Source of the DNA: an uncultured Lachnospiraceae bacterium
GTDB lineage: Bacteria > Bacillota > Clostridia > Lachnospirales > Lachnospiraceae
Assembly (NCBI GenBank): GCA_902794825.1
Contig: CADBIU010000022.1
Location: 1 to 33,298 of the forward strand
Direction: 5' to 3'
Length of the DNA stretch: 33,298 bases
Made by a program: the position numbers and the translations under genes. Each line of letters begins with the position of its first letter. Position 1 is the stretch's first letter. This document shows, in pieces, positions 2,803 to 29,283 of the stretch. The notes beneath the pieces were generated by a model. It made no database searches. It was given only the letters and a program-made list of their open reading frames with translations, and was not told the DNA's origin.

Positions 2803-4247
2803 TCAGCCCTCCAGCGGCTTAACCATCTCATGCCAGCTCCCACCGCCCCACGTGGAATCCGAGATTCCCAAATCCGTAAAGCCGAGCTTCTCGTACAGCC
2901 CGACTTTCTCCTCGTGCGCCGTCAGGACCATGCGGTGCTTTCCCTTCACCTGGCTCCAAATACCATAGAGCTTCATAAGCTCCCTCGCAAGTCCCTGACC
3001 TCGATACTCGGGCAAAATATCGAGTCCCAGAAGGTACACAGTCTGCGCCGCAGGATCATTGAGCGACAGATCTGTAAAGAATTCGTCCTTAAAGCGCGCC
3101 TCATCTGAGGAAATCCCGCACAGGAACCCGGCGACTTTCCCGGTCCCGCGGTCCACCGCCACGAGAAACTGCTCCGGGATCTTCTCAACGAATCTGCACA
3201 TGATCTCCATCGGCTTAGCCTCTTCCGGCGGAAAGCAGATTCTGTCCATCTCTCCGGCCTGCGTGCCCTCCTCGGGGAGGATCTGTCTGAAGCGATAGCG
3301 CTTGAGGAGTGCCTCATCCGCATATACATTAAACAGGATCTCCGGATCCTCATAGGCCAGAATCCCCGTGAACTGCGGCACCTTGAAGCGGTCCATGAAC
3401 AGCATGCACTTGCACATGAAGATGAAGAAAATGTTATACCCGCAGCCGTAAAGCGTCTCGTAGTTGGCCTGCCCCTTGGCAATGACCACATCGGCATGGG
3501 CGATCGTCTCCCGCGCCTCCCGTGACAAAATACGGAGCACCGTCCCGTCAGTCGCCGTACCGTTACCTATGCAGCGCCCCAGTTTAGTGAGGCCGACCTG
3601 CTCCGCGTCCTCCAGTGTCGCGTCGTTGGCGACCGGCCCTCCTCTTACGATCACGGTGATCGACAGATCCGGGTTCATGCGGAGAAACTGGCGGAGCAAT
3701 ATTTTGTCCATTACAATTTCGCCGCAGTTGTCGGTGATAAGGGCCAAGGTGCGCGCTGTCCCCGCTTGCTCTCGCAGCTGCTCCAATGTGTCCGCGTCAA
3801 CTGTGATATCCGGCGCGCGGTCGATCAGCTCCATGAGCTTGCTCTCCTCGACCTTGTCCAGCGCGGCAAAATCGATGAAATTTCCCATCATCGCGTACTG
3901 CACAGCGCTCTTAAATCGATGAAATTTCCCATCATCGCGTACTGCACAGCGCTCTTAAGCGGATCCGCCGAGGCTTCGACCCGCTTTTCCAGCTCCGGCT
4001 CGATCTCCAGCATCAGCGCGTTAAAATGACGTTTGATCTGCGCGTAATCCATCTCTCCCTCGCCAAACAGGCGCTTTCTGAGCGCCTTGACCTCGTAGAA
4101 AACCTCCGGTCCGGTGGGCACCGCTCCTGTTTGGTCCGTGATCCTGACCAGAGTCTCCCGGTACTCCCTGACCAGTTCCTCCGGAGCATCCTCCGGATAG
4201 TTATTAATGTGCTTGTTCAGCATACAATCTTTACATGTGCTGTTCAT
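2803..4247 (-). pseudogene. DUF89 (ARMT1-like phosphatase) fused to a GNAT acetyltransferase, frameshifted by a 44-bp tandem duplication
   Basis: The 5' part (4247 down to about 3900) encodes the DUF89 N-terminus with CKDC near the start. The 3' part (3903 down to 2803) carries on in another frame with the DUF89 motifs TDNCGEIVMD, NDAT and AKGQANYETL, then a GNAT domain with LDILPEYRGQGLARELM and LYEKLGFTDLG. Both frames cross the peptide QYAMMGNFID because a 44-bp unit is repeated in tandem at 3869-3956. Removing one copy leaves 1401 bp, an exact 467-codon frame. DUF89 proteins are metal-dependent damage-control phosphatases; GNAT domains transfer acetyl groups. The start overlaps the MBL stop as TAATG, indicating translational coupling. 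The gene is broken as read, although slippage could restore it, and an assembly error is possible. Confidence 0.85.
3869..3956. repeat. Perfect 44-bp tandem duplication inside the DUF89-GNAT gene
   Basis: Copy 1 is 3869-3912 and copy 2 is 3913-3956, identical throughout. The unit length is 3n+2, so the second copy shifts the frame. Two further matching bases after copy 2 are compatible with slippage, microhomology repair, or an uncollapsed contig overlap. Confidence 0.97.
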
Positions 4248-5377
4248 TATTTCCTCTTATATCCGGTAATCATCGTCATAACAAAGCATGCCACCGTACC
4301 CCATGCAAAAAATCTATGCCATTTCATGTAGTCTCTCCTCTTCTTTTGTGCCGATTTGGCGGTTTCTGAACTCTTTATTGATTGTGCTGTTGCGGGTGAT
4401 GAATTCTTAGAAGCTTCTGTGTTTTTTGCCGGCTCTGAATCCTGTGACTGATCCACTTTCTCACGAACACTCCACACGATCCTATCAATTCCAGTGCGGA
4501 TCCTGATCTCATCTCCGCTGTGTACATAGTGCAGCTGATTTCCCATCAGCTTCTTCATGGCGTTGTAAGGCTCGACGCCTGTGCAGTGGCCGGTATAGAA
4601 CACTGTTTTATACTGCCTCAAAGCCAGCGCCGTGTCGATGATCATGTTGATGTCCTCGTCCGAGTAGTTGTGCTTCTTCATCATGTGGAAGCCGCTGATC
4701 ACAAAGTCCGGTTCTTCACCAAAGAGCTCACAATACCTGTCCATGATATTGAAAATTCCGTGATGGGCGCAGCCTGAGAGCAGCACTTTTTTGACACCCT
4801 CGCTGATCACGAGGCACTGCTCGTGGGCGAAGTCATCCTGAACAAATCCTTCTTCCGTTTTCTTCTTCAGGCGCTGATTGGTGGATGGTATGACGTGTTC
4901 ACTTCCGATTCCGGAGAAAAGGGACAGTTCTTCGTCAATATGGTAGATTCCGTCTGCTGCCTTGGTTTTCTCACCGGCTTCCGGTTTGGCTTCCAGGCTG
5001 GCTTCCGCGCTCACCTTAACCACCTGCGGCAGCTCCTGTATCTCTTTCGCGAGCCCGATATAATGCGGCTCACCGGCCTTATCCATAGAGTAATACTCTC
5101 CAAAGGCCGCTTCCGGAACATAAATCTTCGCAGTCGGATTGATCTTTGCAAACGGAAGGATCCCGCCGCCATGATCGTAATGTCCGTGGCTGAGCACGAC
5201 TGTATCCACCTGAGTCAGGTCGATACCAAGTTTCTCTGCATTCTCGAGCAGCAGATCCGTCTGTCCGGTGTCCATAAGAAGCTTGTGTTTCTCCGTCTCA
5301 ATATAAAAGCACAGTCCGTGCTCGACTCCGCAGCCCGAGGTGCCTTCTGTGTTTTCGACAAGGTTAATTATGCGCAT
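4247..5377 (-). CDS. MBL-fold metallohydrolase with C-terminal membrane anchor
   Basis: Metallo-beta-lactamase-fold hydrolase of 376 residues from the chosen start. It contains the metal motif SHGHYDHGGG, then CAHHGIFN and YTGHCTGVEPYNAMKKL, an arrangement typical of the MBL branch related to dihydropterin/RFA-P synthase-like proteins. The substrate cannot be told from sequence. After the catalytic domain comes a Ser/Lys/Ala-rich linker (about residues 310-350) and a C-terminal hydrophobic segment FFAWGTVACFVMTMITG followed by YKRK, which suggests tail anchoring with the enzyme on the cytoplasmic side. The start at 5377 is preferred over 5404 because GAAGGAGGTACC lies directly upstream. The stop overlaps the DUF89 start (TAATG). 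Confidence 0.88.
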   Translation of the reverse strand: MRIINLVENTEGTSGCGVEHGLCFYIETEKHKLLMDTGQTDLLLENAEKLGIDLTQVDTVVLSHGHYDHGGGILPFAKINPTAKIYVPEAAFGEYYSMDKAGEPHYIGLAKEIQELPQVVKVSAEASLEAKPEAGEKTKAADGIYHIDEELSLFSGIGSEHVIPSTNQRLKKKTEEGFVQDDFAHEQCLVISEGVKKVLLSGCAHHGIFNIMDRYCELFGEEPDFVISGFHMMKKHNYSDEDINMIIDTALALRQYKTVFYTGHCTGVEPYNAMKKLMGNQLHYVHSGDEIRIRTGIDRIVWSVREKVDQSQDSEPAKNTEASKNSSPATAQSIKSSETAKSAQKKRRDYMKWHRFFAWGTVACFVMTMITGYKRK

Positions 5378-5540
5378 TGGTACCTCCTTCTGATCTTCTT
5401 CCATGTAGCAACTGTGAGGCTCTTTTCGCCTGTAATTACCTACTAATCAAGTGCAAATCAATAGTATCAAAACGGCGGAAGGGGTGCAAGGGGAGGGTGT
5501 CGGGGTACCTAAGTGGCAGAAATGTCTCAATTCGAGTTTT

Positions 5541-5872
5541 TTGCCATTTGAGTGCCCCTGGAGCATCTCCAGCGCCACTCAAATGGCAGAAAGCCCAGAA
5601 TTCAAGCAAATTGCCGCCGAAGTGCCCCTGGAGTTCCTCCAGCGCCACTCAAACGGCAGAAAGCCTTGAAATCAAGCAAATTGCCGCCGAAGTGCCCCTG
5701 GAGTTCCTCCAGCGCCACTCAAACGGCAGAAAGCCTTGAAATCAAGCAAATTGCCGCTGAAGTGCCCCTGGACAACCTCCAGCGGCACTCAAACGGCAGA
5801 AGACAAGCAAATCAAGCAAATTGCCGCTGAAGTGCCCCTGGACAACCTCCAGCGGCACTCAAACGGCAGCAA
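5541..5872 (+). repeat. Hairpin array 1: five hairpins at exactly 70-bp spacing
   Basis: 27-bp imperfect palindromes of the type GTGCC(C/G)CTGGAGnnnCTCCAGCG(G/C)CAC start at 5552, 5622, 5692, 5762 and 5832. Each linker of about 43 bp is conserved and has its own dyad (CGGCA near the left, TTGCCG near the right, with CTTGAAATCAAG between). Partial copies extend left to about 5510. The array lies between divergent genes: the minus-strand MBL gene and the plus-strand Rpn-like gene. A period of 70 is not a multiple of 3, so short reading frames here are incidental. Copies 1-3 carry two stem mismatches and copies 4-5 one. Confidence 0.95.
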
Positions 5873-5892
5873 ATCCCTAAATCATTCCAAAA

Positions 5893-5953
5893 CCTCCAAA
5901 CCGGTTGAACAACTATAAGAAAAGATATTTGGCGTCATTATGTGATGCCTGTT
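5893..5953. repeat. Shared array-adjacent motif, copy 1
   Basis: About 55 bp closely similar to 10331-10387, both lying to the right of a hairpin array. The core reads GGTTGAACAACTATAAGAAAAG, containing GTTG-AA-CAAC, followed by GGCGTCA...TGATGCC, a 7-bp stem with one G-U wobble. It precedes the Rpn-like gene by about 230 bp. It may be a promoter, an RNA element or the end of a mobile element; the sequence does not decide. Confidence 0.75.
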
Positions 5954-5982
5954 CTTTTCCTGTATGCCGCCAGTGAAGCGCC

Positions 5983-6011
5983 TTGACTTTTGCCTGTTAC
6001 GAGACTATGTT
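5983..6011 (+). promoter_or_regulatory. Candidate sigma-70-type promoter for the Rpn-like gene
   Basis: TTGACT at 5983-5988, a 17-bp spacer, and TATGTT at 6006-6011. It lies about 170 bp upstream of the start at 6182, leaving a sizeable untranslated leader in which nothing else was recognised. Confidence 0.5.
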
Positions 6012-6181
6012 ATTTCTATCGGAGCAGTTTCTATGCTCCACAGCAGAAAATTCACTTCTTACATCCTATCTGATATTTCCTGCTGACAACAACCATTCAC
6101 ATCAGGCAGGGAATACCGGATTTGCATGTATTTGACATGTCGACTCCCTGTCTGCCACACATCCAAGTCAGGAGGTACGGC

Positions 6182-7177
6182 ATGAGTTTCAACAATCAGT
6201 ATTTTGACACCGTCGATGGTTCTTCTAACAGGAGTTCTTCCCTTTCCAAGTGGGAAAACCTGACGATAAAGGACCGCTTTCTATTTGCCAAGGTAATGGG
6301 ACAGAAGGAAAACTGTCTTCCCCTTCTGCAAAGGCTTTTCCCCGAACTCCAGATTACAGATATCCGATACGTCGAAGCAGAAAAGACTGTAGAAGGATCC
6401 ATTGACTCTAAGGCAGTCCGTCTCGATGTTTACGTGAGGGATTCTGACCAGCGCGCTTTTACGCTGGAAATGCAGGTATATGACAAAGGGAACCTTCCCA
6501 TGCGAAGCCGTTACTATGGCTCAATGATGGATGAAAACCTGCTCAGCACCGGGCAGGATTACGACGAAATCATGCCGGCTTACGTCATCTTCATCTGTCC
6601 CTTTGACCTGTTCGGGAAAGGACTTCATCGCTATACTTTCATGAACTTCTGTAAAGAGGATTTCTCCATTCCGTTAGGAGATGGTTCTGCCAAAATATTC
6701 CTCAACACGAAGGGGACTGCAGACGATGTGTCAAAAGAAGTTCTGGCATTCTTAAATTATGTTAATGGAATTGCTGCACCTGATGACGAATACGTTTCGC
6801 TGCTCGATCAGGCTGTAAAAAGGGCCAGAAAGAATGCTGTATGGAGGCGTGAATTCATGAATTACGAGATGGAAATGAGATACGAGAGGAAAATGGCAAG
6901 AAAGGAAGGCCTCGCAGAAGGTCGTGCGGAAGGTCGTGCGGAAGGTCGTGCAGAAGGTCGTGCAGAAGGTCGTGCAGAAGGTCGTGCAGAAGGTGAACAG
7001 CTTAAACTGATTCAAATTGTTGCAAAAAAAGTCCTGAAAGGAAAGAGTCTTTCAGTGATTGCATCTGAACTGGAAGAAACAGAGGACTCAATCAAGCCGA
7101 TTTACGATTCACTGGTTTCAACCCCCGGAGCAGGTCCGGAAGAGATACTTGATCACTTACAGAAAGAGTTATGTTAA
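6182..7177 (+). CDS. Rpn-family PD-(D/E)XK nuclease / putative transposase
   Basis: 331-residue protein of the Rpn (recombination-promoting nuclease) / PDDEXK_2 family, often annotated as a transposase. The N-terminal domain has LTIKDRFLFAKVMG, then VRLDVYV and LEMQVYD, giving the D...ExQ form of the nuclease core, followed by RSRYYGSMMDENLLSTGQDY and FICPFDLFGKG. A helical, highly charged C-terminal part contains seven EGRA-type repeats (about residues 242-272) encoded by 12-bp DNA repeats, typical of the family. Family members cut DNA and promote RecA-independent recombination in Escherichia coli. The start at 6182 is preferred because AGGAGG is 6 bp upstream; a longer frame from 6122 has no site. 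It follows hairpin array 1 and the shared motif. Confidence 0.88.
   Translation: MSFNNQYFDTVDGSSNRSSSLSKWENLTIKDRFLFAKVMGQKENCLPLLQRLFPELQITDIRYVEAEKTVEGSIDSKAVRLDVYVRDSDQRAFTLEMQVYDKGNLPMRSRYYGSMMDENLLSTGQDYDEIMPAYVIFICPFDLFGKGLHRYTFMNFCKEDFSIPLGDGSAKIFLNTKGTADDVSKEVLAFLNYVNGIAAPDDEYVSLLDQAVKRARKNAVWRREFMNYEMEMRYERKMARKEGLAEGRAEGRAEGRAEGRAEGRAEGRAEGEQLKLIQIVAKKVLKGKSLSVIASELEETEDSIKPIYDSLVSTPGAGPEEILDHLQKELC
6917..6993 (+). repeat. 12-bp coding tandem repeat (EGRA units)
   Basis: The unit GAAGGTCGTGC(A/G) is repeated about six to seven times without interruption inside the Rpn-like gene. The length is a multiple of 3, so copy-number changes would add or remove AEGR units without breaking the frame. 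Confidence 0.93.
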
Positions 7178-7225
7178 TGGCCCGTTGTACAGGCCGCTGC
7201 CAATTGGATCAAGGGAGATGTCCAA

Positions 7226-8068
7226 ATGAGTACCTACGATCTCAAGCGACTTGAAGTCGCCATCCAATACATCCGGCGCATGTCAGACGGCAAGAACCCC
7301 GTCACCAACAGACCTGCCCCGGAAAACGAAGTCCTGAACAACATGAACGTCCATCGCTGCCTGAAGTTCATCGACGAAGTGCTGACCGACGTCCACAAAA
7401 GCGGCGGAACCGTCGGCATGATCTCGCAGCGCGCCCTCAAACAATCTGTCTCCGAGATCTTCCCTTACGATGCACTGGCGCAGTACCGGTATCTGCAGGA
7501 CCAGCAGATTTCCTACTTCCTGAAACAGCTCGAAGAATACCTGCCGGAAGGTCAAAAAATACCCGTCCCCGCCACAACGATCACCTTATGGATGCGAGAA
7601 AACGGGTACCTGGAGAAAAAAGTGCTCAACGATACCGGCAAAGAAAACTCAGTTCCCACCAGGAAAGGCGAGAACCTTGGGCTCTATATGGAGAAAGCCG
7701 GCGCCTATCCCAACGAGTACTACCGCGTATTTTATAATGAGTCAGCGCAACGCTTTATCATCGATAACTTCCGCCGTATTCTGACCGAATCCGAGGAGAT
7801 CCGTGAGCGAAACCGCAGAGAGAAGAAAAAAGATGCTCCGCCGCGCAGCGCGCGGCAGAGTGCAGGCAATACTAAGCAGAGCAGTGCTCCAAGCAGACAA
7901 GGAACCAGCAATGTTACCGATTCTGGAAATCCTGACAACATATCTCAGGCACTCATGCAACACAACTTCAAGCCTTCGGAGTCTGCTCCTGTGGAAGACC
8001 TCCCTCAGGAATACTACGACATGCTCAGCGAAGGGTGGGCTCCCTCGGATGACGGGGTACCGTGGTAA
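7226..8068 (+). CDS. Conserved-looking hypothetical protein
   Basis: 280 residues, not recognised. Residues 1-190 look like a compact, mainly helical domain (conspicuous stretches RLEVAIQYIRRMSDGKNP and FFLKQLEEYLPEG-like segments). It is followed by a basic Ser/Gln/Arg-rich linker (about 195-245) and a short acidic C-terminal tail ending PSDDGVPW. No signal peptide or membrane segment is seen. The start at 7226 has AAGGGAG eight bases upstream. It lies 48 bp after the Rpn-like gene on the same strand, so the two are probably co-transcribed. It ends at a strong convergent terminator. The function is unknown. Confidence 0.8.
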   Translation: MSTYDLKRLEVAIQYIRRMSDGKNPVTNRPAPENEVLNNMNVHRCLKFIDEVLTDVHKSGGTVGMISQRALKQSVSEIFPYDALAQYRYLQDQQISYFLKQLEEYLPEGQKIPVPATTITLWMRENGYLEKKVLNDTGKENSVPTRKGENLGLYMEKAGAYPNEYYRVFYNESAQRFIIDNFRRILTESEEIRERNRREKKKDAPPRSARQSAGNTKQSSAPSRQGTSNVTDSGNPDNISQALMQHNFKPSESAPVEDLPQEYYDMLSEGWAPSDDGVPW

Positions 8069-8083
8069 AGAAAATGGCATATG

Positions 8084-8120
8084 AAAAGCCGCCGCACCTC
8101 CAAGGTACGGCGGCTTTAAT
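8084..8120. terminator. Bidirectional rho-independent terminator
   Basis: Perfect 10-bp stem AAAGCCGCCG / CGGCGGCTTT at 8085-8094 and 8108-8117, with A and T runs at the ends. It lies between the convergent hypothetical gene (ending 8068) and DUF362 gene (ending 8150). Confidence 0.85.
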
Positions 8121-8149
8121 CATTCCGCTAAACAATCTTTCTCAGTCTC

Positions 8150-9154
8150 TCATCCCACAAACGGCACCACGTGCGTCACCGCATCTGCGGGCTGGATTCT
8201 GCACTCGCCGTTGTCCAGGTCGATCAGGACATATTTGTTGTTGCCCATGCCGAGTTCCTTCATGTAGCTGAGCTGGCGATGGCCGTGCCTGGTCTCGATT
8301 CTCTCCACCAGATCGTGGTGATCTTCTTCCTTGAGAGCATAGACGAGGTCTACGCTGGCTGTGTCCACCGCGCAGATATCCAGGGATGCAACGATTCCGA
8401 TGTTGGGCGTCACGACAGGTGCTGCCGCCACGCCTTCACAGTCGCAGGAAACGGACATGTTGCGCAGCACATTGATGTACGCGATACTTCCGGCAAAATA
8501 GTCAATGGTCGCCTTTGTCGACTCCGAAATACGCTCCATCAGCTCTTCCGTGCGGATGCCCCACTGATTTCCGGAATCAGCTGTATGGATCCATTTTTTG
8601 CCCTCTTTGCCGTCCGCGCAGCCGATGCCGATGTTCTTGTTGGAGCCACCAAAGCCGCCCTGAACATGGCCCTTGAAGTGGGTCAGCGCAAGGAAAGAAT
8701 CATAAGTCGGAAGAGATTTGCCGACAGACATCTCGGTGAACCACTTGCCGCCTTTGACGGGAAGAGTCGTCGTTCCAAACTCATCCGTGATATCCACATC
8801 GGCAAAAGTCCAGCCGTTCACTTCCAGCGTCTTGCGGTGCTTCTCGGTTGTGTCGCGGTCGCCCTCGTAGTAAGTATTTGTCTCGATGATCGTCGCATCG
8901 TCAAAAATGCCCAGTTCTTTCTCGAACAAATTCTTCACCCAGGGTCTGGGAATGATGTTCGGTCCGTGCTGCTCGCCGGTGTGGAGCTTGATCGCTACTT
9001 TGCCATGCAGTACGCCGCACACCTTCTTGTAGATCTTCTGAAGCCCTGCCGCGGAAAGATCTCTTGTAAAGTAGACGATGGACTCGCATCCGGTCCTGTT
9101 CTCATAAGGGACATAGTATTCGCCGCCCTTACCGGCTGTCATTCTCACTGCCAT
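8150..9154 (-). CDS. DUF362 domain-containing protein
   Basis: 334-residue protein matching the DUF362 family, recognisable from VAIKLHTGEQHGPNIIPRPWV, the conserved LTHFKGHVQGGFGGSNKNIGIG segment and the DICAVDTASVDLVYAL region. Longer family members carry C-terminal 4Fe-4S clusters; this one has no CxxCxxC motif and is the short form. The biochemical role of the family is poorly known. No signal peptide is seen. The start at 9154 follows AGGAGGGAACT. It is downstream of the cupin gene on the same strand, separated by a 30-bp tandem repeat block, and probably shares its transcript. Confidence 0.88.
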   Translation of the reverse strand: MAVRMTAGKGGEYYVPYENRTGCESIVYFTRDLSAAGLQKIYKKVCGVLHGKVAIKLHTGEQHGPNIIPRPWVKNLFEKELGIFDDATIIETNTYYEGDRDTTEKHRKTLEVNGWTFADVDITDEFGTTTLPVKGGKWFTEMSVGKSLPTYDSFLALTHFKGHVQGGFGGSNKNIGIGCADGKEGKKWIHTADSGNQWGIRTEELMERISESTKATIDYFAGSIAYINVLRNMSVSCDCEGVAAAPVVTPNIGIVASLDICAVDTASVDLVYALKEEDHHDLVERIETRHGHRQLSYMKELGMGNNKYVLIDLDNGECRIQPADAVTHVVPFVG

Positions 9155-9190
9155 AGTTCCCTCCTGTTTTGGTCAAAAGATCGATCGGCC

Positions 9191-9310
9191 CGACTCCCTC
9201 TGTCAGGAGCAGGAAGTATCTGGCTCCGCTTGTTGGGAGCAGGTGGTTACTGGCTCCGCTCGGCGGGAGCAGGTGGTTACTGGCTCCGCTCGGCGGGAGC
9301 AGGAAGTTCT
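9191..9310. repeat. 30-bp tandem repeat between the cupin and DUF362 genes
   Basis: Four consecutive 30-bp units begin at 9191, 9221, 9251 and 9281. Units 2-4 are nearly identical (TGGCTCCGCTCGGCGGGAGC core) and unit 1 is diverged. Each unit can form a short hairpin (GCTCC / GGGAGC). The block fills most of the gap between the cupin stop and the DUF362 ribosome binding site, so it would be a series of intercistronic hairpins in the transcript. Confidence 0.93.
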
Positions 9311-9660
9311 CAAGCGTAGACGATAACTGCCACCAACTCTACGACTTCGTCAGTCTTGTTAGCAATGCCGTGGCCCTGTCCTGTAGGGCAGATTGTCACG
9401 TCGCCCGCTTTCACAATGCGGATCACATTGTTGTCGTTGTACTCTGCGGTACCCTTCATAATGTAGAATAATTCCGCATCCTTCTCATGAATATGATAAC
9501 CGATGCTGCAGCCGGGGTTCAACGTTATTTTGGCAAACAGTCTGCCCTTTTCGTTGAGTTCTGCCGGTCCTGTAATAAAGTTTGTGATCTGTACAGTTCC
9601 CTCACCATCGCGCATATGTTCGCGGTATTCCACCTGACATTCGTGTTCTGTTCTGATCAT
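9310..9660 (-). CDS. Single-domain cupin protein
   Basis: 116-residue small beta-barrel protein. The first cupin motif GCSIGYHIHEKDAELFYIMKG gives the usual two His and one Glu metal ligands. The second motif AGDVTICPTGQGHG supplies the third His. Cupins of this size bind a metal or small ligand and may be enzymes or sensors; the substrate is unknown. The start at 9660 has AGGAG about 7 bp upstream. It is the first gene of a likely cupin-DUF362 pair. Confidence 0.9.
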   Translation of the reverse strand: MIRTEHECQVEYREHMRDGEGTVQITNFITGPAELNEKGRLFAKITLNPGCSIGYHIHEKDAELFYIMKGTAEYNDNNVIRIVKAGDVTICPTGQGHGIANKTDEVVELVAVIVYA

Positions 9661-9732
9661 GATAGTTCTCCTTTTTTCTGCTTTCTTAGTTTAAGCAGGT
9701 CTGTACATTGTTAACTTGTTTCGAATACGGGT

Positions 9733-9761
9733 ATTATACTACATTGACGCAAGTGATGAAA
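9733..9761 (-). promoter_or_regulatory. Candidate -10 region for the cupin-DUF362 pair
   Basis: A perfect TATAAT on the minus strand at 9733-9738, about 73 bp upstream of the cupin start. The -35 region at 17-18 bp spacing is poor, so the assignment is tentative. Confidence 0.35.
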
Positions 9762-9810
9762 TATGAAAGCCTTTCTGGTCAGGTGGGTGAGTTTGTAGGC
9801 TGTTCTGCCG

Positions 9811-10166
9811 CTGTAGTGCCCTTGGAACTATTCCAAGGGCACTTTGGCGGCAATTTATTTGATTTATGGGCTTTCTGACGGTTGAGTGCCCCTGGAGTTC
9901 CTCCAGCGGCACTTCCGCGGCAATTTGCTTGATTTCTGGCCTTTCTGCCAGTTAAGTGCCGCTGGAACCCCTCCAGCGGCACTTCCGCGGCAATTTGCTT
10001 GATTCCTGGCCTTTCTGCCAGTTAAGTGCCGCTGGAACCCCTCCAGCGGCACTTCCGTGGCAATTTGTTTGATTTCTGGCCTTTCTGACAGTTGAGTGCC
10101 GCTGGAGCTCCTCCAAGGGCACTCAACCAGCAATAAACTGGCACTCAACTGGCAATAAACTGACAC
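9811..10166 (-). repeat. Hairpin array 2: five hairpins at 70-bp spacing, inverted relative to arrays 1 and 3
   Basis: 27-bp palindromes start at 9816, 9886, 9956, 10026 and 10096. The first is a perfect 12-bp stem with loop CTA, in a different stem sequence (GTGCCCTTGGAA / TTCCAAGGGCAC). The third and fourth are perfect GTGCCGCTGGA stems. Linkers match those of array 1 when reverse-complemented. At the right end a 22-bp unit (GGCACTCAACyrGCAATAAACT) is repeated at 10118 and 10140, with a decayed third copy. The array lies between the divergent cupin and PD-(D/E)XK-like genes. Confidence 0.95.
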
Positions 10167-10330
10167 TCAGCCGACACACAACCTTCACCCAACCGGCAGA
10201 AGGCAAACAACCCCAACAAACCTCTTGTTTTTATTATCAGAGAGTGCTATCTTTGTCTCATGTTTCATGCCCCATCGGGCACGAACCACTTCTTTAAGAA
10301 TCTGAAATTCATTGCGATTTCCGCAAAGTC

Positions 10331-10387
10331 CCAAAACGGTTGAGCAACTATAAGAAAAGTCTTTTGGCATCAATTTTGTGATGCCTG
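10331..10387. repeat. Shared array-adjacent motif, copy 2
   Basis: Copy of the motif at 5893-5953. It contains GTTG-AG-CAAC, the identical stretch AACTATAAGAAAAG, and a perfect 7-bp stem GGCATCA...TGATGCC. The right arm of the stem overlaps the GTG/ATG start region of the PD-(D/E)XK-like gene at 10378-10383, so a structure here could affect initiation. Confidence 0.75.
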
Positions 10388-11442
10388 ATTTATCATTTCA
10401 AAAGGGGGGAAGGCCTATTACTATTAATGAATTATTGAATGAGCAGGAAACACTGCGGCAGATCCGGAAGTATCATATACAGAAGCTATTCGCCTGGAAT
10501 AATCCGCCGGGAATTCTTTTGTGCCACAAACATGGAAATTGGATCCGGTGGCAAAAAAGAGAACTGAAGAACGGTCATCCCATCACGACAGATCTTCGCA
10601 AAACTGAAACCGAACTCGCCGAAAAGCTGGCCGTCAATCTGTATCGAATTATCTGCATCCAAACCATTCAGAAGCAGATAAATGATATTGAAAAGCTGAT
10701 CAGAAACCGATACTCCAATCGGCAGAGCAAGCTGGATGATATTGCACAAGAAGAACCGTCTCAGTCGGAACCTGAAGACTTGGCAAAAAATAGTCCGGGC
10801 GCCACTATTTTGGCAGAAGGTGCGATTCGCAAGCTTTTTTACAGAGTTCGGAATTGCCCCGGCGAACCGGCAGATTTCTTCCATGTAGATTCGCCTTACA
10901 GGCCTCTCATTATTCATTTTCTCCGAAATGAATATGCCGATATTATTGATTGGTATAATGGAGATTTTCCACAGAACCAGGAACATCCGGAGAACTTACT
11001 GTATGAAGTGAAACTCGGATATAAAGTGCGTTCCAAATCCGAAGTGTTGATCGCTGACCGCTTGTATGATGAAGGGATTCTGTTTCATTACGAGGAGCTG
11101 CTTTACCTGACCGAAAGTGATCCTTATCCTGACTTTTACATTCCATTTTCGCTTGTGAAGAAATATATCTGGGAGCATTTCGGAGCAATGGATAAAAACA
11201 ACTACTTCCATCGCACCAAAGGAAGAATTCTTAATTACATGGATGATAAGTGGTTTCCGGGGATCAATATGGTTGCAACCTATGAGACAAAAGCTAATCC
11301 ATTAGAAGCAACGCAGGTTGATCAAAAGGTGAGCATGTTAAAAACCAAGTATCGACTTGCATTCCCTGATCTGCCACCGGATGAGTCTTTTAATATGTAT
11401 GATCTTGCGGATTATGCTAAGCTCTGCGGGGTGGAAGATTAA
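10378..11442 (+). CDS. Putative PD-(D/E)XK-type nuclease, hypothetical
   Basis: 354 residues. Residues 1-150 are charged and mainly helical. From about residue 217 the pattern RSKSEVLIADRL, YPDFYI, YIWEHFGAMD and later an ET in TYETKANP resembles PD-(D/E)XK nuclease-like domains found in Firmicutes, with SE, PDF, E-H-G and a downstream Lys as likely active-site positions. No membrane segment or signal peptide is seen. The start is uncertain: GTG at 10378 or ATG at 10381, with no good ribosome binding site upstream; the only G-rich stretch is inside the frame. The gene is flanked by hairpin arrays 2 and 3 in opposite orientation. The nuclease role is an inference from motif spacing. Confidence 0.65.
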   Translation: MMPDLSFQKGGRPITINELLNEQETLRQIRKYHIQKLFAWNNPPGILLCHKHGNWIRWQKRELKNGHPITTDLRKTETELAEKLAVNLYRIICIQTIQKQINDIEKLIRNRYSNRQSKLDDIAQEEPSQSEPEDLAKNSPGATILAEGAIRKLFYRVRNCPGEPADFFHVDSPYRPLIIHFLRNEYADIIDWYNGDFPQNQEHPENLLYEVKLGYKVRSKSEVLIADRLYDEGILFHYEELLYLTESDPYPDFYIPFSLVKKYIWEHFGAMDKNNYFHRTKGRILNYMDDKWFPGINMVATYETKANPLEATQVDQKVSMLKTKYRLAFPDLPPDESFNMYDLADYAKLCGVED

Positions 11443-11489
11443 AGGTTATTTAGTTTCTTGTCCTGTATGGTGCCGGATGAGTGCCCTGG

Positions 11490-11825
11490 ATTCTTGTGAC
11501 GGTTGAGTGCCCCTGGAGATGCTCCAGTGGCACTCAAATGGCAGAATCGTCTCAATTCTTGTTTATTGCCGTTGATGTGCCCTTGGAGTTCCTCCAGCGG
11601 CACTCTAATGGCGGAATTGTCTCTTTTCTTGTTTATTGCCGTTGATGTGCCGCTGGAGATGCTCCAGCGGCACTCTAATGGCGGAATTGTCTCTTTTCTT
11701 GTTTATTGCCGTTGATGTGCCGCTGGAGATGCTCCAGTGGCACTCAAATGGCAGAATCGTCTCAATTCTTGTTTATTGACGTTGATGTGCCCCTGGAGGT
11801 ACTCCAGCGGCACTCAACCGGCGGT
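11490..11825 (+). repeat. Hairpin array 3: five hairpins at 70-bp spacing
   Basis: 27-bp palindromes start at 11507, 11577, 11647, 11717 and 11787. The copy at 11647 is a perfect 12-bp stem with loop ATG. Linkers form their own subfamily (GGCGGAATTGTCTC...GTTTATTGCCGTTGAT) in the same orientation as array 1. A decayed half-copy precedes at about 11480. It lies between convergent stops (PD-(D/E)XK-like gene at 11442, lipoprotein at 11829) and would be in both 3' untranslated regions. No other terminator is visible there. Confidence 0.95.
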
Positions 11826-11828
11826 TAA

Positions 11829-13424
11829 TCACTCGCCAGGTTTTGCCGGCGGCTCACTATTATCTCCGTCAGGCTTAGCGGGCGGCTCACTGCCGTCGCC
11901 GCCAGGGCCAGCGCTGCCGCTTCCGCTTCCGGGTTTTTCAGGAGGTGTTCCGCCGCCATGTCCGCTGCCGCTATGGTCGCCATGGCCGCCGGAAGAAGCA
12001 GTCTCCACCACGATCGCTTCTCCTTCAGAAGCAGTACCTTCCGCATACTCCTCGCCATTCACATACAGCTTGTGACCATTTAGGTTAATGCTGCCTGCGC
12101 TGCAGGTAAGGCTTGTGATATAGCTGTCGCCGGTCAGCGTCCAGGTGGATCCGTCCTCGATCTCCACATAGATATCGCCGCCTGCGCCGTCAGAATTGAT
12201 CGCTCCGCTGAAGCTGCTGTTGTCCTTCAGATACAGGTTCAGTGAGGAAATCTCATCTACGATCATGTCGCCGTCAATGTTTTGGCCCGAAGCATTCATC
12301 GTCACATGGCCGCCGTTGCTGCCTTCGCTCCCCCAGCCTGCTGCCGCCGCGCGCAGGAAAACGCCTTCCGAATCTTCGTTGACAATAGTCGCTCCGGTCA
12401 GATCGATCGTTGCCGTCGTATTGTTGACGAAGAAAATATCCCCGTTGAGGTTCGTGAGCGTCCCTCCGTTCATGGCAAAAGAAGCAAGCCCCTCGTCCGC
12501 GTCGCCCGACATGGACTGGTAGATCATGACTGCCTGATACCACTCGGACTTGTCACTGTTCTTCTTGACGTTGCTGGCTGTCAGGTTCACGTTGTTGAGG
12601 GTAACTGAATTTTGGCCTTCTACTACGACGCCCTGTGACGCCGTGGATTCCATCTCCGCATCACTCACAGTGATGTCCGCTGTGGAGTAAATGACCGGCG
12701 AACCTGTTCCTTCTGTCGTATAGCTGCCGCCGGTCACATTGACGGTTCCGCCGCCCCTATCGGAGCGGATCGCCGCGGAGCTGTTGCCCGTAGTATGTAT
12801 CAGCAGGTTGCTGGCGTTCATCGTGCCGCCTCCGGTGGTCATCAGTCCGCCTGAGCAGTTGCCTGTGGTCTCAATCACGGAGTCGGAAATATTGACCGTC
12901 GTGCCCTCGCCGTAGCTGAACACACCGTTGGCGTGCTTGCCATCGGTATTAACAGTGATCTCGCTGAGCGTCAGCGTCGCCCCGTTGGTGGCAAAAACAG
13001 CCGCATTCGCGCCATAAAAATCTGCCTCGTCGCCTTCCGCGTCGCCGGTCTTGACCACTGCGATATTGGAATAGGATGCTTCTTCGCCGTCCGCTGTGAT
13101 CGCGTGCTCCTCGTCAGTATTGTTCTCAATTGTCTCAGTAATCTCGATTTCCTCTGCTGAGGGAATCTTTGTGGTTGTTGAACCGGCTGTTGTGTCGGCC
13201 TGCGCTTCGCTGTCCTGTGCCGCGTCAGTCTGCACTGCTTCGGTTTCCGCTGTATCAGTCTGTGCTGCACTGTCCTGAGCAGCGTCAGTCTGCGCCTGAG
13301 TCTCTGCTTCTGTCTCTACTGCAGCGGTTGTTGCTGATGTCGCCGCGCCTGTCGTCCCGCATCCGCCGAGCACCAGGCTCATGATCATCAGACTTGCTGC
13401 CATCATTGCTGTTGTCTTCTTCAT
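11829..13424 (-). CDS. Secreted lipoprotein with predicted beta-helix domain
   Basis: 531 residues. The N-terminus MKKTTAMMAASLMIMSLVLGGC is a lipoprotein signal with lipobox LGGC and Cys22 as lipidation site, placing the protein on the outer face of the membrane. Residues 25-100 are a repetitive Ala/Gln/Asp/Thr linker. Residues 100-470 consist of short repeats of the type VNVTGGSY / VTLNNVNLTAS, typical of right-handed parallel beta-helices in pectate-lyase-like or adhesin proteins. The C-terminus is Gly/Pro/His-rich (HGDHSGSGHGGG, then two EPPAKP repeats). The start at 13424 has AGGAAAG upstream. No catalytic residues were recognised; ligand or carbohydrate binding is only a guess. Confidence 0.85.
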   Translation of the reverse strand: MKKTTAMMAASLMIMSLVLGGCGTTGAATSATTAAVETEAETQAQTDAAQDSAAQTDTAETEAVQTDAAQDSEAQADTTAGSTTTKIPSAEEIEITETIENNTDEEHAITADGEEASYSNIAVVKTGDAEGDEADFYGANAAVFATNGATLTLSEITVNTDGKHANGVFSYGEGTTVNISDSVIETTGNCSGGLMTTGGGTMNASNLLIHTTGNSSAAIRSDRGGGTVNVTGGSYTTEGTGSPVIYSTADITVSDAEMESTASQGVVVEGQNSVTLNNVNLTASNVKKNSDKSEWYQAVMIYQSMSGDADEGLASFAMNGGTLTNLNGDIFFVNNTTATIDLTGATIVNEDSEGVFLRAAAAGWGSEGSNGGHVTMNASGQNIDGDMIVDEISSLNLYLKDNSSFSGAINSDGAGGDIYVEIEDGSTWTLTGDSYITSLTCSAGSINLNGHKLYVNGEEYAEGTASEGEAIVVETASSGGHGDHSGSGHGGGTPPEKPGSGSGSAGPGGDGSEPPAKPDGDNSEPPAKPGE

Positions 13425-16470: not shown

Positions 16471-16580
16471 ATAACAAAGAAAATCGGCTGCAGCATACGC
16501 TGCAGCCGATTTTCTTATTGGGAGAGTTTACGTAAGATGAACTCAGTAAACCTTAGTCATGGATCCGATCAGTGTCGATC
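16468..16580. repeat. Duplicated terminator block, copy A
   Basis: About 110 bp nearly identical to 29182-29283, in the same orientation. It starts exactly at the recombinase stop codon (CTAAATAACAAAG) and runs into the adhesin stop region. It continues into similar adhesin 3' coding sequence. The differences are in the hairpin loop and a few single bases. Confidence 0.9.
16477..16516. terminator. Rho-independent terminator, perfect 18-bp stem
   Basis: AAGAAAATCGGCTGCAGC and its exact complement flank the loop ATAC. It is symmetrical with A and T runs on both sides, so it can end the recombinase transcript and the giant adhesin transcript, which converge here. Confidence 0.9.
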
Positions 16581-19500
16581 AGACCTTTTTTCTGCGTTTG
16601 TACCATACGGTTCCGCCGAGCGCGCCGCCTGCCATCAGCAGAAGCAGTGCCCAGAGAGCTCCGTTGGTGCTGTCGCCTGTCTTGCTCGATCTTCCGGACT
16701 TGGAAGATTTGTGAGATTCCTCGTAGTTGTTGACAAATGTCGCCTTTTCGGTCTCTTTGCCATCTACACTCCAAGTGATCTTCGCGCTGATCGTTCCATC
16801 GCCCTCATCATGAAGAGCTACAGTCGCGGTGAATGTCCTGCTGTCATAAGTCACTCCCTTCTTAGGGAATAAAGGCTTCTCTTCATTCACGGTGTAAGTC
16901 TTGACTGCATCTGTTTCTCCGTTTGCAAATACAGTCTCGTCTACCGCGATCGCAGCAAATGTTACATCACCCGTTGCATCGTTCTTAACCTTTTCAATCA
17001 GTTTTCCGTCCTGATCATACAGGCAGAAGGTAAACATACCATCCTCAAGTTTTCCGCCATTATAGAGCTTCTGTGCCTTGATCTGAATATCTCCCTTAGC
17101 CTTGTATTCATTCCGGAATACAAATTCCATTTCCTGTGCGCTTGTATCAACGCTGATCTTGCCGGCCTGATCATCGGTCAGTACAACATGGATCGGGAAC
17201 TCGGTCTTGTCATAAATATAACCGGGCTTTCCTTCGTCAACTTCACGCACCGTGTAGTTGCGCTCTACGCTCTCGGCATAGCCTTCCTCAGTCTTAAACT
17301 CATCCTGAGTGTAGGTCAGAGGCTCGAATGTGAACACACCGTTCTCATCGTTCTGAACAGTCTGCAATACTTTGCCTTCTTCATCTACAAGTTCTGCAGA
17401 GAACTGTCCTGCAGCAAGCTTCCTGCCTGTCAGCTCTTTTTTGGCTGTGATCGGCAGCTCGCCCGCAGACGCGTAGTCGTTAACAAATGTCTGGTTCTCC
17501 AGCTCGCTGTATACAGTAACAACGTCAAGAGTTCCATCACCATTATCCGTGAAGAAGACATTGATCTTCATTACGCTTTCTGAATAGGTAACGCCTCCCA
17601 GTTTCTCCTCCGGGATCTCCTCTTCGATCGTGTACTGAATCGGAAGTTTGTCCTTGTCCTCAGAGAGCTTGTAACCGATAGCCGTGAAGACCGCTTTGCC
17701 TTCAGCGTCGTTCGGGACCTTCTCAATGACTTCACCCTTGGAATCCTTGAGAATGAAATTGAACTCACCCTCTTTGAGCTTGCGTCCATTCAGCTGCTTG
17801 AAAGCCTCAAACGTAGCCGTACCTTCAGCATCATAGACATTTGTGATTATGAGGCCCTTATCTGTCTCATATTCCACAGCAGCACTGAGCTTGTTATCCT
17901 CATCCTTCGTAACATGGACGATCACCGTGTGCTCCGTCACATCATAAGTGACACCGCCAAGGCCTTCATCGACCTCAGTGATCGTGTATTCATAATCACC
18001 GGCTTTCTTGAACGTCATGGGGCTGAATTTACCGGTCGGGCTGTCTTTCGTAACAGTAACGGTATTATCTTCCGGAACCGGCGCGCCCTCAGTCTCTGCT
18101 GTCAGAGTAAACTTGAAGCTGTCATCTGTTGTCCATTCGCGGCCTTTCAGTACCTTTGTAACTTCGAGCTGCTGAGTAATAGGCGTGAATACGTTGGTCA
18201 CGGTCAGAGAAGATGCATTTGAATACTTGCACTCAGCCTTCAGTTTGCCTGTTGCCGCATCCTCTGTCACGATAACTTCAACAGGTTTCTCTGTGGTATC
18301 ATATCTGACGCCATCCAGATCTTTCTTGGTTTCCTTGATCGTGTAATGGTAATTTCCTTTCTTAAGGAATTCTATCGTGCCGAATTTGCCCGTAGGTTCA
18401 TTCTTGGTTACAGTTACTGTCTCTCCTCCGGCTTCCGGCATGGGATCATCATCTGTATTGGCAAGAACAAACTCGAAGGAATCATCAGTCTCCCAGTCAC
18501 GTCCTTTCAGTTCCTTAGTGACTTCGAGGGTGACTTCTACAGGTTCATAAGGAGTATTTGTTACTGTAAATCCATCCTCTACAGATCCCGTGATCACTCC
18601 GGCTGTATAACCATCAGCCTTTACTTCCTGAATTGTGTATACAATTTTCTTTCCGACTTCACCGTGTTTATACTCGGGAAGATCGGTGAATGTATGCTTC
18701 CACTCATTTTCTTCGCTAAGTTCGACTGTGTCTGCCACGTCACCGTACGCCATCAGCTTCACCGTAATGCTTTCCGGCATCAGCAGCGTGTTCTGTTCTT
18801 CCGTGCCATTCCATTTCTTTTCGACGGGAATATCAATTGTCGAAGGAGTATGCGTGTTGGTAACTACAAAACCGCTTGTCTTATCGCCGCTGTAAGAAAT
18901 TGCATATGTGCCGGGGCCATCTGTTCCGGTAATTGCATCAGATGTAGCCTCTTCCACAGTATAGGCAATCTCTGTACCGTGGTCTTTATTCTTGGGCAGA
19001 TCCGTGAAGCTGTCACTCCACTGGTTTTGGCTGCTAAGTACAGTGCTGTCTATTACCTCAGTGTCAACCTTCAGATTAATCGTGACGCTGGCAGGTTGTA
19101 CTCCATCCCGGTTATCATCATCAGCCCAAACCTTAGTTACAGGAATCTCGATCTTCTCAGGCGTATGCGTATTTGTCACGGTAAAGCCATTTTCAGCGTC
19201 TCCTGTGACAGATATTGCATACGTGCCGGGGCCGTCAGTTCCGGTGATTACATCAGTTGTGGCCTCTTCCACAGTATAGGCAATTGCAGTACCGTGGTTC
19301 TTATACTTGGGTAGGTTCGTGAAGCTGTCACTCCACTGATTTTTGCTGCTAAGTACAGTACTGTCTATTACCTCAGTGTCAGCCTTCAGATTGATCGTGA
19401 CGCTCTCAGGCTGGATTCCATCCCGGTCGTTATCGTCATTCCAAATCTTTCTGACAGGAATCTCAACTACTTCAGGTACATGTTTGTTGACGAGGGTTCC

Positions 19501-28903: not shown

Positions 28904-29174
28904 TCATGCGAGTTTCTTGTACTCCTCGAGGATGACATTGTACATGCGGCTGCCTTCCGCAACGCCGGTGTACTTGACGATCGCTGCTTCTACGCCGTTC
29001 TCTGCGATGAACTTCTGGAGCGCGTCCTGCACGATCTCATAGCCCTTGATAGCCTGGCCATAATATCCTGCGATGGCGTGTCCGCAGTTGATGATGTAGA
29101 TCTTTCTCTGGAGATGCCATAATATCCTGCGATGGCGTGTCCGCAGTTGATGATGTAGATCTTTCTCTGGAGAT
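28904..29174 (-). pseudogene. Remnant of a mannitol-1-phosphate-dehydrogenase-like gene
   Basis: Reading one copy of the internal repeat, the frame gives RKIYIINCGHAIAGYYGQAIKGYEIVQDAL. This resembles the NTGHA segment in the middle of MtlD-type dehydrogenases. It then gives GVEAAIVKYTGVAEGS...YKKLA, which resembles the very end of MtlD. About 170 residues normally separate these parts, so an internal deletion is inferred. The 5' part is missing: the sequence changes to the duplicated terminator block at about 29180. A 59-bp tandem duplication (29057-29115 and 29116-29174) shifts the frame further. The family call is by motif memory only. Confidence 0.5.
29057..29174. repeat. Perfect 59-bp tandem duplication
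   Basis: Copies 29057-29115 and 29116-29174 are identical. The length is 3n+2, like the 44-bp duplication in the DUF89 gene. It directly adjoins the junction with the duplicated terminator block. Confidence 0.97.
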
Positions 29175-29181
29175 ACATCCT

Positions 29182-29283
29182 AAATAACAAAGAAAATCGG
29201 CTGCAGCATGAGCTGCAGCCGATTTTCTTATTGGGAGAGTTTACGTAAGATGAACTCAGTAAACCTTAGTTATGGATCTGATC
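29182..29283. repeat. Duplicated terminator block, copy B
   Basis: Direct repeat of 16468-16580, about 12.7 kb away in the same orientation. Its left edge adjoins the dehydrogenase remnant, and its right edge runs into the stop codon of the second adhesin. Confidence 0.9.
29190..29229. terminator. Rho-independent terminator of the second large adhesin
   Basis: 18-bp perfect stem identical to that at 16477-16516, with loop ATGA instead of ATAC. Confidence 0.9.

Follow-up and report, generated by a model that had tools for sequence, protein, structure and literature searches.

We analyzed a 33,298-nucleotide stretch of DNA from an uncultured Lachnospiraceae bacterium (contig CADBIU010000022.1 of assembly GCA_902794825.1; hereafter, the window), which contains three arrays of palindromes at a 70-bp pitch. 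We are confident that these arrays (A1, A2, and A3; Table 1) are members of a non-coding family of tandem palindromes, which we detected in only one genus of the Lachnospiraceae. Because the arrays lie at orthologous places in related genomes, differ there in their number of units, and hold units that resemble each other most within an array, the family is inherited vertically with local turnover. Our best overall explanation is a lineage-specific family of palindromic tandem repeats that perhaps serves as protein-binding or architectural DNA, and we give this explanation a probability of about 50%.

The arrays and their repeat unit

A first-pass annotation of the window had described three arrays of five 27-bp palindromes at exact 70-bp spacing. 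These arrays are real. We scanned the window for palindromes with 11-bp arms and at most two mismatches, and this gave palindromes at 5551, 5621, 5691, 5761, and 5831 in A1; at 9815, 9885, 9955, 10025, and 10095 in A2; and at 11506, 11577, 11646, 11716, and 11786 in A3. (In A3, the second palindrome is accepted only if its span is shortened a little.) Once the units are placed in register, every step in all three arrays is exactly 70 bp, and Tandem Repeats Finder (TRF) reports a period of 70 for each array. The refined limits of the arrays are given in Table 1.

The symmetry of the 27-bp palindromes holds up, but their length does not: an outer arm (TTGCCG...CGGCAG) lengthens the 27-bp core to an imperfect palindrome of about 49 bp and leaves a linker of 20-21 bp. 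The order of the unit is outer arm, small internal bulge, inner arm (AGTGCC.CTGGA...TCCAG.GGCACT) around a tip of 3-5 nt, and then the linker. Each window array has a palindrome at both ends, so that its layout is (P-L)4-P, where P is the palindrome and L is the linker. Judged by the polarity of this linker, A2 runs in the opposite direction to A1 and A3, and together with A1 it makes an inverted pair of 342 nt with 79% complementarity. The first-pass annotation was also right that the linkers of one array resemble each other more than they resemble those of the other arrays, and units 2 and 3 of A1 are identical. Degenerate half-units adjoin two of the arrays (Table 1), and those beside A2 contain 22-nt direct repeats (TRF reports a period of 22/11 at 10118-10169). 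The end of A3 is 3 bp from the gene at 11829-13424, which is convergent and has its stop-codon end there.

The hairpin pattern, with up to three mismatches, has 29 forward and 32 reverse matches in the window's own genome, while a control in which the pattern was read backwards has 0 and 0. When folded as single-stranded DNA, three window units have energies of -15.6 to -19.8 kcal/mol (z of -5.3 to -6.5). A search of both strands of the window against Rfam 15 gave no matches at the gathering level.

Conserved places and changing numbers of units

We built a covariance model (R1) from 39 units of the window's genome, including those of the window. (Labels that begin with G, C, or L are our working names for genomes, for contigs of the window's genome, G000, and for loci.) A pattern search together with R1 identified 40 family units at 11 places in this genome: the window plus C13, C30, C40, C43, C56, C60, and C61. 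According to our home-made gene caller, nearly all of these places are intergenic; the exceptions are a single unit at C13:45720, which lies inside an open reading frame (ORF) call, and the array on C56, which overlaps the end of an ORF by 13 bp.

The window arrays and those on C13, C30, C40, C43, C56, and C60 have orthologues by flanking DNA in one or both of two close genomes (G012 and G032), with aligned pieces that are mostly 85-98% identical. For C61, there was no flanking-DNA orthologue among the loci that we compared. The number of units at orthologous places often differs. Where places were found whole, the counts in G000 and G012 are 5 and 8 for A1, 5 and 5 for A2, 5 and 1 for A3, and 6 and 5 for C13; the counts in G000, G012, and G032 are 3, 4, and 4 for C30; 1, 9, and 6 for C40; 3, 6, and 2 for C43; 5, 3, and 5 for C56; and 3, 6, and 4 for C60. 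Across 33 array places in these three genomes, arrays range from one to nine units (three places, L123, L125, and L126, touch contig ends). The fixed number of five that the first-pass annotation had seen does not survive this comparison. Five units occur at 10 of the 33 places, three of which are the window's own, so the three-times-five pattern reflects the most frequent array size, encountered three times, rather than a rule. A local regularity as striking as this one can be no more than the most frequent value of a distribution that varies. Also, the array-bearing genomes are drafts of roughly 110-340 contigs (RUG13037, UBA6998, and SRR873608_bin.40 are metagenome-assembled), and near-identical 70-bp units may collapse in short-read assembly, which leaves every exact copy number uncertain, including the fives in the window.

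Units within an array look like mosaics of one another, as expected from exchange between units. Outside the close genomes, the C40 place in G021 (whose neighboring protein is 97% identical) has an ordinary terminator hairpin and no array, and the same place in G024, G006, and G023 has other hairpins and no array. Therefore, this array was either gained in the window's clade or lost outside of it.

The own genome also contains arrays of other sequence. Running TRF on loci that were reached by weak matches to R1 identified four: C13:48164-48501 and one on C50, each with a period of 71 bp, and two on C99 with periods of 71 and 72 bp. A 400-kb sample of this genome that was chosen without R1 contained no 70-72-bp arrays, so the arrays are few. 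At several mosaic loci (L110, which is on C99, and L109, L108, L107, and L128), arrays of other types adjoin another dispersed hairpin (GAGCCCTTAGAGGTA..CTCTAAGGGCTC and variants), and on C99 this second hairpin is itself tandem at 72 bp.

The pitch of the arrays

In the three close genomes, 92 of 104 spacings are 70 bp, 11 are 71 bp, and one is 69 bp; in the own genome, 28 of 29 are 70 bp. (The 104 spacings and the array sizes are from all 138 units. The 33 places were defined at a score of at least 25, which drops a unit at L128 and two weak end units, and the spacings are then 90, 11, and 1.) In four pairs of orthologous arrays of equal length, which share lineages, we found 130 substitutions and no gaps over 1184 aligned columns. 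The flanking sides with under 25% divergence, which are the only ones counted, have 271 substitutions and 19 gaps, and at that ratio about 9 gaps would be expected in the arrays.

The first-pass annotation had also considered the period to be fixed. A 70-72-bp pitch is indeed kept far outside the window, but spacings of 71 and 69 bp occur as well, and another genome of the genus has further arrays with quite different periods. A 100-kb sample of that genome (G031) contained, among others, tandem arrays with periods of 52, 61, and 63 bp, so families differ in pitch. We rejected 70-72 bp as a universal ruler because of these arrays and because samples that were chosen independently of R1 lacked 70-72-bp arrays (293 kb of G014, 106 kb of G028, and 400 kb of the outgroup G057, besides the own-genome sample). 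Three of the G031 arrays (L317:25-414, L317:19740-19999, and L314:15444-15767) have periods of 63 and 61 bp and up to 5-6 copies, and by eye they contain inverted repeats.

Spread in the genus and compensatory changes

At E ≤ 1e-4, R1 matches 11 of 62 genomes of the genus, including the own genome. Across the order, only one of 295 sampled genomes (130 genera) matched, and this was the own genome; weak matches are lost here, because stricter filters apply whenever more than 40 genomes are searched. In a separate search, 8 of 61 genomes had matches at E ≤ 0.01, and all of them are in the genus. A scan of genome contigs for the exact pattern returned 13 stretches from RUG13037, UBA6998, and SRR873608_bin.40, which are all Lachnospiraceae (records of the own genome were perhaps left out). 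No viral contig contained the exact pattern, and we rejected a phage or other mobile source.

More distant members of the genus (G031, G021, G066, G071, G081, G024, and G006) have arrays of different sequence with periods of 71-72 bp. To compare families, we aligned 25 representatives from 9 genomes with MAFFT, without using structure. (This set leaves out the arrays of G006, which are mostly partial matches without a clear outer arm; the arrays on C99; the match in G023; and further units of each array.) The hairpin is retained: 79.8% of cells are paired, as compared to a mean of 69.2 after shuffling. Two-sided changes number 79, as compared to 34.4 in shuffled alignments (standard deviation 4.8), and none of 500 shuffles reached 79. 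These changes affect 19 of 23 pairs, and controls in which the structure was slid along the alignment gave at most 36 two-sided cells. RNAalifold, given the same 25 rows, predicts 13 pairs, all of which are within the same outer and inner stems. Furthermore, 21 of the 25 representatives are in arrays that TRF calls tandem at 70-72 bp (those from G079, G077, G071c, and G024b are not), and this call is independent of the structure. We recognized no earlier description of such arrays in this group in the open-license literature, and one may exist elsewhere.

Constraint within the window's family

Within arrays, the stems change least. We compared 68 interior units with scores of at least 36 to the consensus of their array. 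The inner stem (0.028 differences per site) and the outer stem (0.034) vary least, the bulge is intermediate (0.068), and the tip (0.124) and the linker (0.100) vary most, which amounts to a 3-4-fold lower divergence in stems than in tips and linkers. At positions that are paired in the consensus, there are 116 one-sided changes and 7 two-sided changes, of which 5 restore the pair. Since the changes are mostly one-sided, there is no quick copying between arms.

DNA or RNA

If the hairpin were required in an RNA transcribed from one strand, G.U pairs should be tolerated and A.C pairs should not. In the own family (units with scores of at least 30; 123 distinct units of 135), we counted 203 G.T cells, 87 of them at the terminal pair, and 182 A.C cells. 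Across the 25 representatives, there are 51 G.T and 44 A.C cells, and both are below the shuffled values (65 and 59). As neither kind is consistently dominant, neither strand is clearly favored, and we prefer symmetry at the level of DNA over an RNA from one strand.

The arrays occur between convergent, divergent, and co-directional genes. A1 and A2 are between divergent genes, while A3 and the arrays on C30, C40, and C43 are between convergent genes and lie 3-97 bp past stop codons. In co-directional groups, the polarity of the linker agrees with transcription at C56; it is opposite at C60, at L102/L120, and at L103/L121; and it is mixed at L106 and the orthologues of C60. A directional terminator is disfavored because this orientation is inconsistent. 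Judged by eye, one strand of the linker is no more than moderately rich in T, and its polarity does not align with the genes. A regular terminator adjoins the C30 array. A DNA-level role, or no role, fits better than an RNA role.

Neighboring genes and other features of the window

The first-pass annotation had placed the arrays in an accessory setting and suggested that they might be substrates of neighboring nuclease-like proteins. Around the window arrays there are indeed genes of this kind (Table 1), but at the other loci the link was not borne out. Arrays elsewhere adjoin genes for an SDF (dicarboxylate) symporter, a pyridoxal-phosphate (PLP) enzyme, a glycosyltransferase, an MscS channel, an ABC transporter, a phosphoesterase, a short-chain dehydrogenase, and a sorbitol phosphotransferase system (PTS), and the C13 array adjoins a run of 11 tRNA genes. 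We searched 10 neighbors of six other loci in the own genome against Pfam: eight matched families, none of which is a nuclease, and two matched nothing.

The protein of the gene between A2 and A3 has no match in Pfam or NCBIfam, while candidate defense models match part of it (Table 1); we note that it resembles PD-(D/E)XK proteins, by eye only. A 42-bp element precedes this gene and also the Rpn-family gene. Its 23-bp core, with up to three mismatches, occurs only twice in the own genome, and the element runs into a GGCRTCA...TGATGCC inverted repeat. It is possibly a shared leader or operator. With just two copies, we rejected it as a fixed companion of the arrays.

Table 1. Arrays, half-units, and neighboring features in the window
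Feature	Position	Strand	Evidence or remark
Array A1	5541-5870	+	Five 49-bp palindromes, 70-bp pitch; TRF, palindrome scan, in-register R1 match
Array A2	9804-10133	-	Five units, 70-bp pitch; inverted relative to A1; palindrome scan, repeat comparison, R1
Array A3	11496-11825	+	Five units, 70-bp pitch; palindrome scan, R1
Degenerate half-units extending A2	10134-10203	-	Repeated ...TGCCAGTTGAGTGCC arms without a partner arm
Degenerate half-unit preceding A3	11455-11495	+	Sequence; repeat family
Metallo-beta-lactamase-fold protein gene (neighbor of A1)	4247-5404	-	PF00753, E = 1.1e-14
Rpn-family PD-(D/E)XK nuclease/putative transposase gene (neighbor of A1)	6179-7177	+	PF12784, E = 7.7e-14; TIGR01784, E = 1.8e-32
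Cupin gene (neighbor of A2)	9310-9660	-	PF07883, E = 1.1e-15
Gene between A2 and A3	10378-11442	+	Residues 200-321 match the end of candidate defense models PDC-S68 (E = 1e-18) and, more weakly, PDC-S69
42-bp element, copy 1	5896-5937	+	Just after A1, upstream of the Rpn-family gene; 86% identical to 10331-10372
42-bp element, copy 2	10331-10372	+	Upstream of the gene at 10378-11442

The window contains other repeats as well. A 30-bp tandem repeat at 9206-9308 (GGAGCAGG..TGGCTCCGCTCGGCG, 3.4 copies) separates the start of a DUF362 gene from the end of the cupin gene, and this repeat is also present in G079 (L318:727-876, 5 copies). Two near-identical palindromes (AATCGGCTGCAGCAT..GCTGCAGCCGATT) are found at 16482-16511 and 29195-29224, and each directly follows the stop codon of one of the window's two largest ORFs. 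These ORFs (16579-24951 and 29282-33298, both on the minus strand) appear adhesin-like by eye. There are two perfect 59-bp direct repeats at 29057-29174 (100% match).

RAYT genes in the genus

Repetitive extragenic palindromes (REPs) are associated with RAYT, a Y1 tyrosine transposase, and Y1 genes of RAYT length are present in the own genome and in G012 and G032. We searched the surroundings of RAYT-length Y1 genes of ten genomes (19 loci, 99,260 bases) with a profile of the unit and obtained no match at E ≤ 1; the survey is not exhaustive, as the genomes are incomplete, some contigs end near the gene, and some PF01797 matches were not fetched. Where palindromes are present at these loci, they have other cores and a spacing of 32-61 bp; for instance, GACCTCTGGGGT is beside one of the three RAYT-length genes in the own genome. 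G031, which is 78% complete, has 71-bp arrays but no match to PF01797. We also observed that several RAYT-length Y1 genes in the genus (L294, L304, L305, and others) are flanked by palindromes of their own, such as GACCTCTGGGGTC. It may be worthwhile to survey such REPtrons across Lachnospiraceae.

Interpretation and alternatives

In the explanation that we prefer, each module combines a site of dyad symmetry, about 49 bp long, with a linker of 20-21 nt that has a fixed polarity. The arrays are passed on vertically at fixed intergenic places, and whole modules are gained or lost within them. The most likely cause of this turnover is unequal exchange or slippage, which would also homogenize adjacent units. 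Over longer times, the sequence appears to drift while the fold and the 70-72-bp pitch are kept, subject to the bias of our search. Regularly spaced symmetric sites, or hairpins extruded from them, might then form a platform at gene boundaries for a nucleoid-associated or gyrase-like protein that binds DNA or acts on its topology, as has been reported for BIME-2 of E. coli (see below). We propose this platform role at the level of DNA only tentatively and at less than even odds. A more specific version, which we think is unlikely, is that geometry rather than sequence is selected, and that the arrays are genus-specific architectural DNA in which a ~49-bp dyad at a 70-72-bp pitch would be read by a candidate protein or enzyme that recognizes hairpins or cruciforms. 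A pitch of 70-72 bp would be about 6.7-6.9 turns at 10.5 bp per turn, and three 70-bp modules would make 20 turns; species would hold mutually diverged versions of the sequence, with the fold kept through compensatory changes.

Several observations weigh against a function for the arrays or soften the evidence above. Of the 62 genomes in the genus, 51 have no R1 match at E ≤ 1e-4 (two of these, G023 and G024, have weaker ones), so any role is not general in the genus. As R1 contains the structure, it favors paired sequences among the representatives; 8 of the 25 rows are from G031, and the shuffles ignore relatedness. Covariation within the own family is weak, with only pair 18-32 above shuffles at 0.01, and for A1 none of five covariation measures is clearly above shuffles. 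The absence of gaps is weakened as evidence because pairs of equal length were chosen (one of them identical) and because units homogenize each other, and gene conversion among units could hold the pitch at 70 bp without selection. The other periods in G031 are a further point against a function. Lastly, if the terminal pair is set aside, A.C cells in the own family exceed G.T cells (179 to 116, with 55 of the A.C cells at one pair), which may be a mild lean towards pairing on the opposite strand.

These points bear on the alternatives. The arrays might be a neutral or selfish palindromic variable-number tandem repeat (VNTR), which grew by slippage from one dispersed palindrome, has no function, and merely inherited its pitch. 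We give this about the same chance as the platform, well short of even: it accommodates the swings in array size at one place (as at C40), the lack of fixed neighbors, the many genomes without matches, the related genomes with no array at the C40 place, and the other periods in G031, but not so easily the slower divergence of the stems within arrays, the two-sided compensations between families, or the missing gaps. The first-pass annotation had itself stated that widely varying unit numbers and periods in relatives, or random intergenic sites with no gene association, would reduce the arrays to an ordinary dispersed repeat. Array size does vary in relatives, and the arrays are not associated with particular genes. 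Within the family, however, the period stays in a narrow range, and the reduction is therefore only partly supported. RNA modules, which had also been suggested, could be bidirectional terminators, 3'-end protectors, or multi-hairpin small RNAs. The strong hairpins, the arrays just past the stops of convergent genes, and the excess of A.C outside the terminal pair in the own family (which fits an RNA from the opposite strand) suit such roles, and tagged REPs are described in excerpts of PMC3733652 as mostly downstream of genes and plausibly transcribed. Yet there is no imbalance between G.T and A.C across families, A1 and A2 are between divergent genes, linker polarity is inconsistent with respect to co-directional genes, C30 has a separate terminator, and Rfam has no match in the window; we consider RNA roles unlikely.

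Other alternatives are less probable still. A REP or bacterial interspersed mosaic element (BIME) in the strict sense, that is, a non-autonomous element moved by RAYT, would also be palindromic, intergenic, and dispersed, and RAYT-length genes are at hand in three of the genomes. We judge it improbable, given that the unit is missing from the RAYT loci, that the palindromes there have other cores and spacings (although several of those contigs end early), that G031 has arrays but no PF01797 match, and that the arrays are mostly at orthologous places. That the arrays are a substrate, recognition site, or regulatory array of the nuclease-like genes seems very improbable to us: A1 and A2 are upstream of the two genes, which share a 42-bp element that is found only there, and A2 and A3 flank one of them, but the 10 neighbors scanned elsewhere include no recognized nuclease, and C13 is beside tRNA genes. 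Finally, a repeat and spacer of roughly 50 + 20 bp at regular intervals might recall clustered regularly interspaced short palindromic repeats (CRISPR) or an integron. The spacers of our arrays repeat each other instead of being unique, which refutes this idea. Neither cas nor integron-integrase families were found by Pfam in the 9 window proteins and 10 neighbors that we scanned (a subset of neighbors), no viral contig has the exact pattern, and we regard this alternative as practically discounted. One protein of the window, 4 kb from A3, is a serine resolvase.

Comparison with known repeat classes

The first-pass annotation had suggested that the arrays fit no known class of repeats, and in agreement with this, they are not ordinary members of the classes that we checked (no match in Rfam, and the differences from REPs and BIMEs below). 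Minisatellite or VNTR loci, such as the mycobacterial interspersed repetitive units (MIRU) of Mycobacterium, consist of 50-100-bp units in tandem, whose copy number varies at fixed intergenic positions. In contrast to these, the unit in the window is a long palindrome, compensatory changes link its families, and the 70-72-bp pitch extends across the diverged sequences that R1 reached. The BOX elements of Streptococcus are also intergenic and structured, with a tandem module that varies in number, but they are three-module elements with distinct ends, whereas the modules in the window are all alike and its arrays begin and end with a palindrome.

REPs and BIMEs are closest in form. Most REPs are 20-40 bp and have a GTAG or CGTC tag, according to excerpts of PMC3733652; excerpts of PMC2817692 add that there are usually more than 100 copies per genome and that REPs alternate in orientation within BIMEs. 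The family in the window consists of imperfect, extragenic, dispersed palindromes, but its palindrome is about 49 bp and untagged (the unit consensus ends in TTGCCG and GGCAGAAA), there are 40 units in the own genome (which is 85% complete), and 24 of 28 arrays with at least two units have a single polarity, head to tail, while four are mixed. BIMEs of E. coli, Xanthomonas, and Stenotrophomonas are described in the same excerpts of PMC2817692 as intergenic, regularly spaced, imperfect palindromes that vary in length and preserve their palindromic features, and BIME-2 as binding DNA gyrase strongly. Like BIMEs, the arrays in the window are intergenic, regularly spaced, built from imperfect palindromes, and variable in length. 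The REP literature, as far as these two excerpted sources represent it, centers on tagged REPs of Proteobacteria (PMC3733652, PMC2817692), and a family from Firmicutes whose fold and pitch persist while its sequence changes would provide a clean test of whether hairpin arrays between genes are selected DNA architecture or debris.

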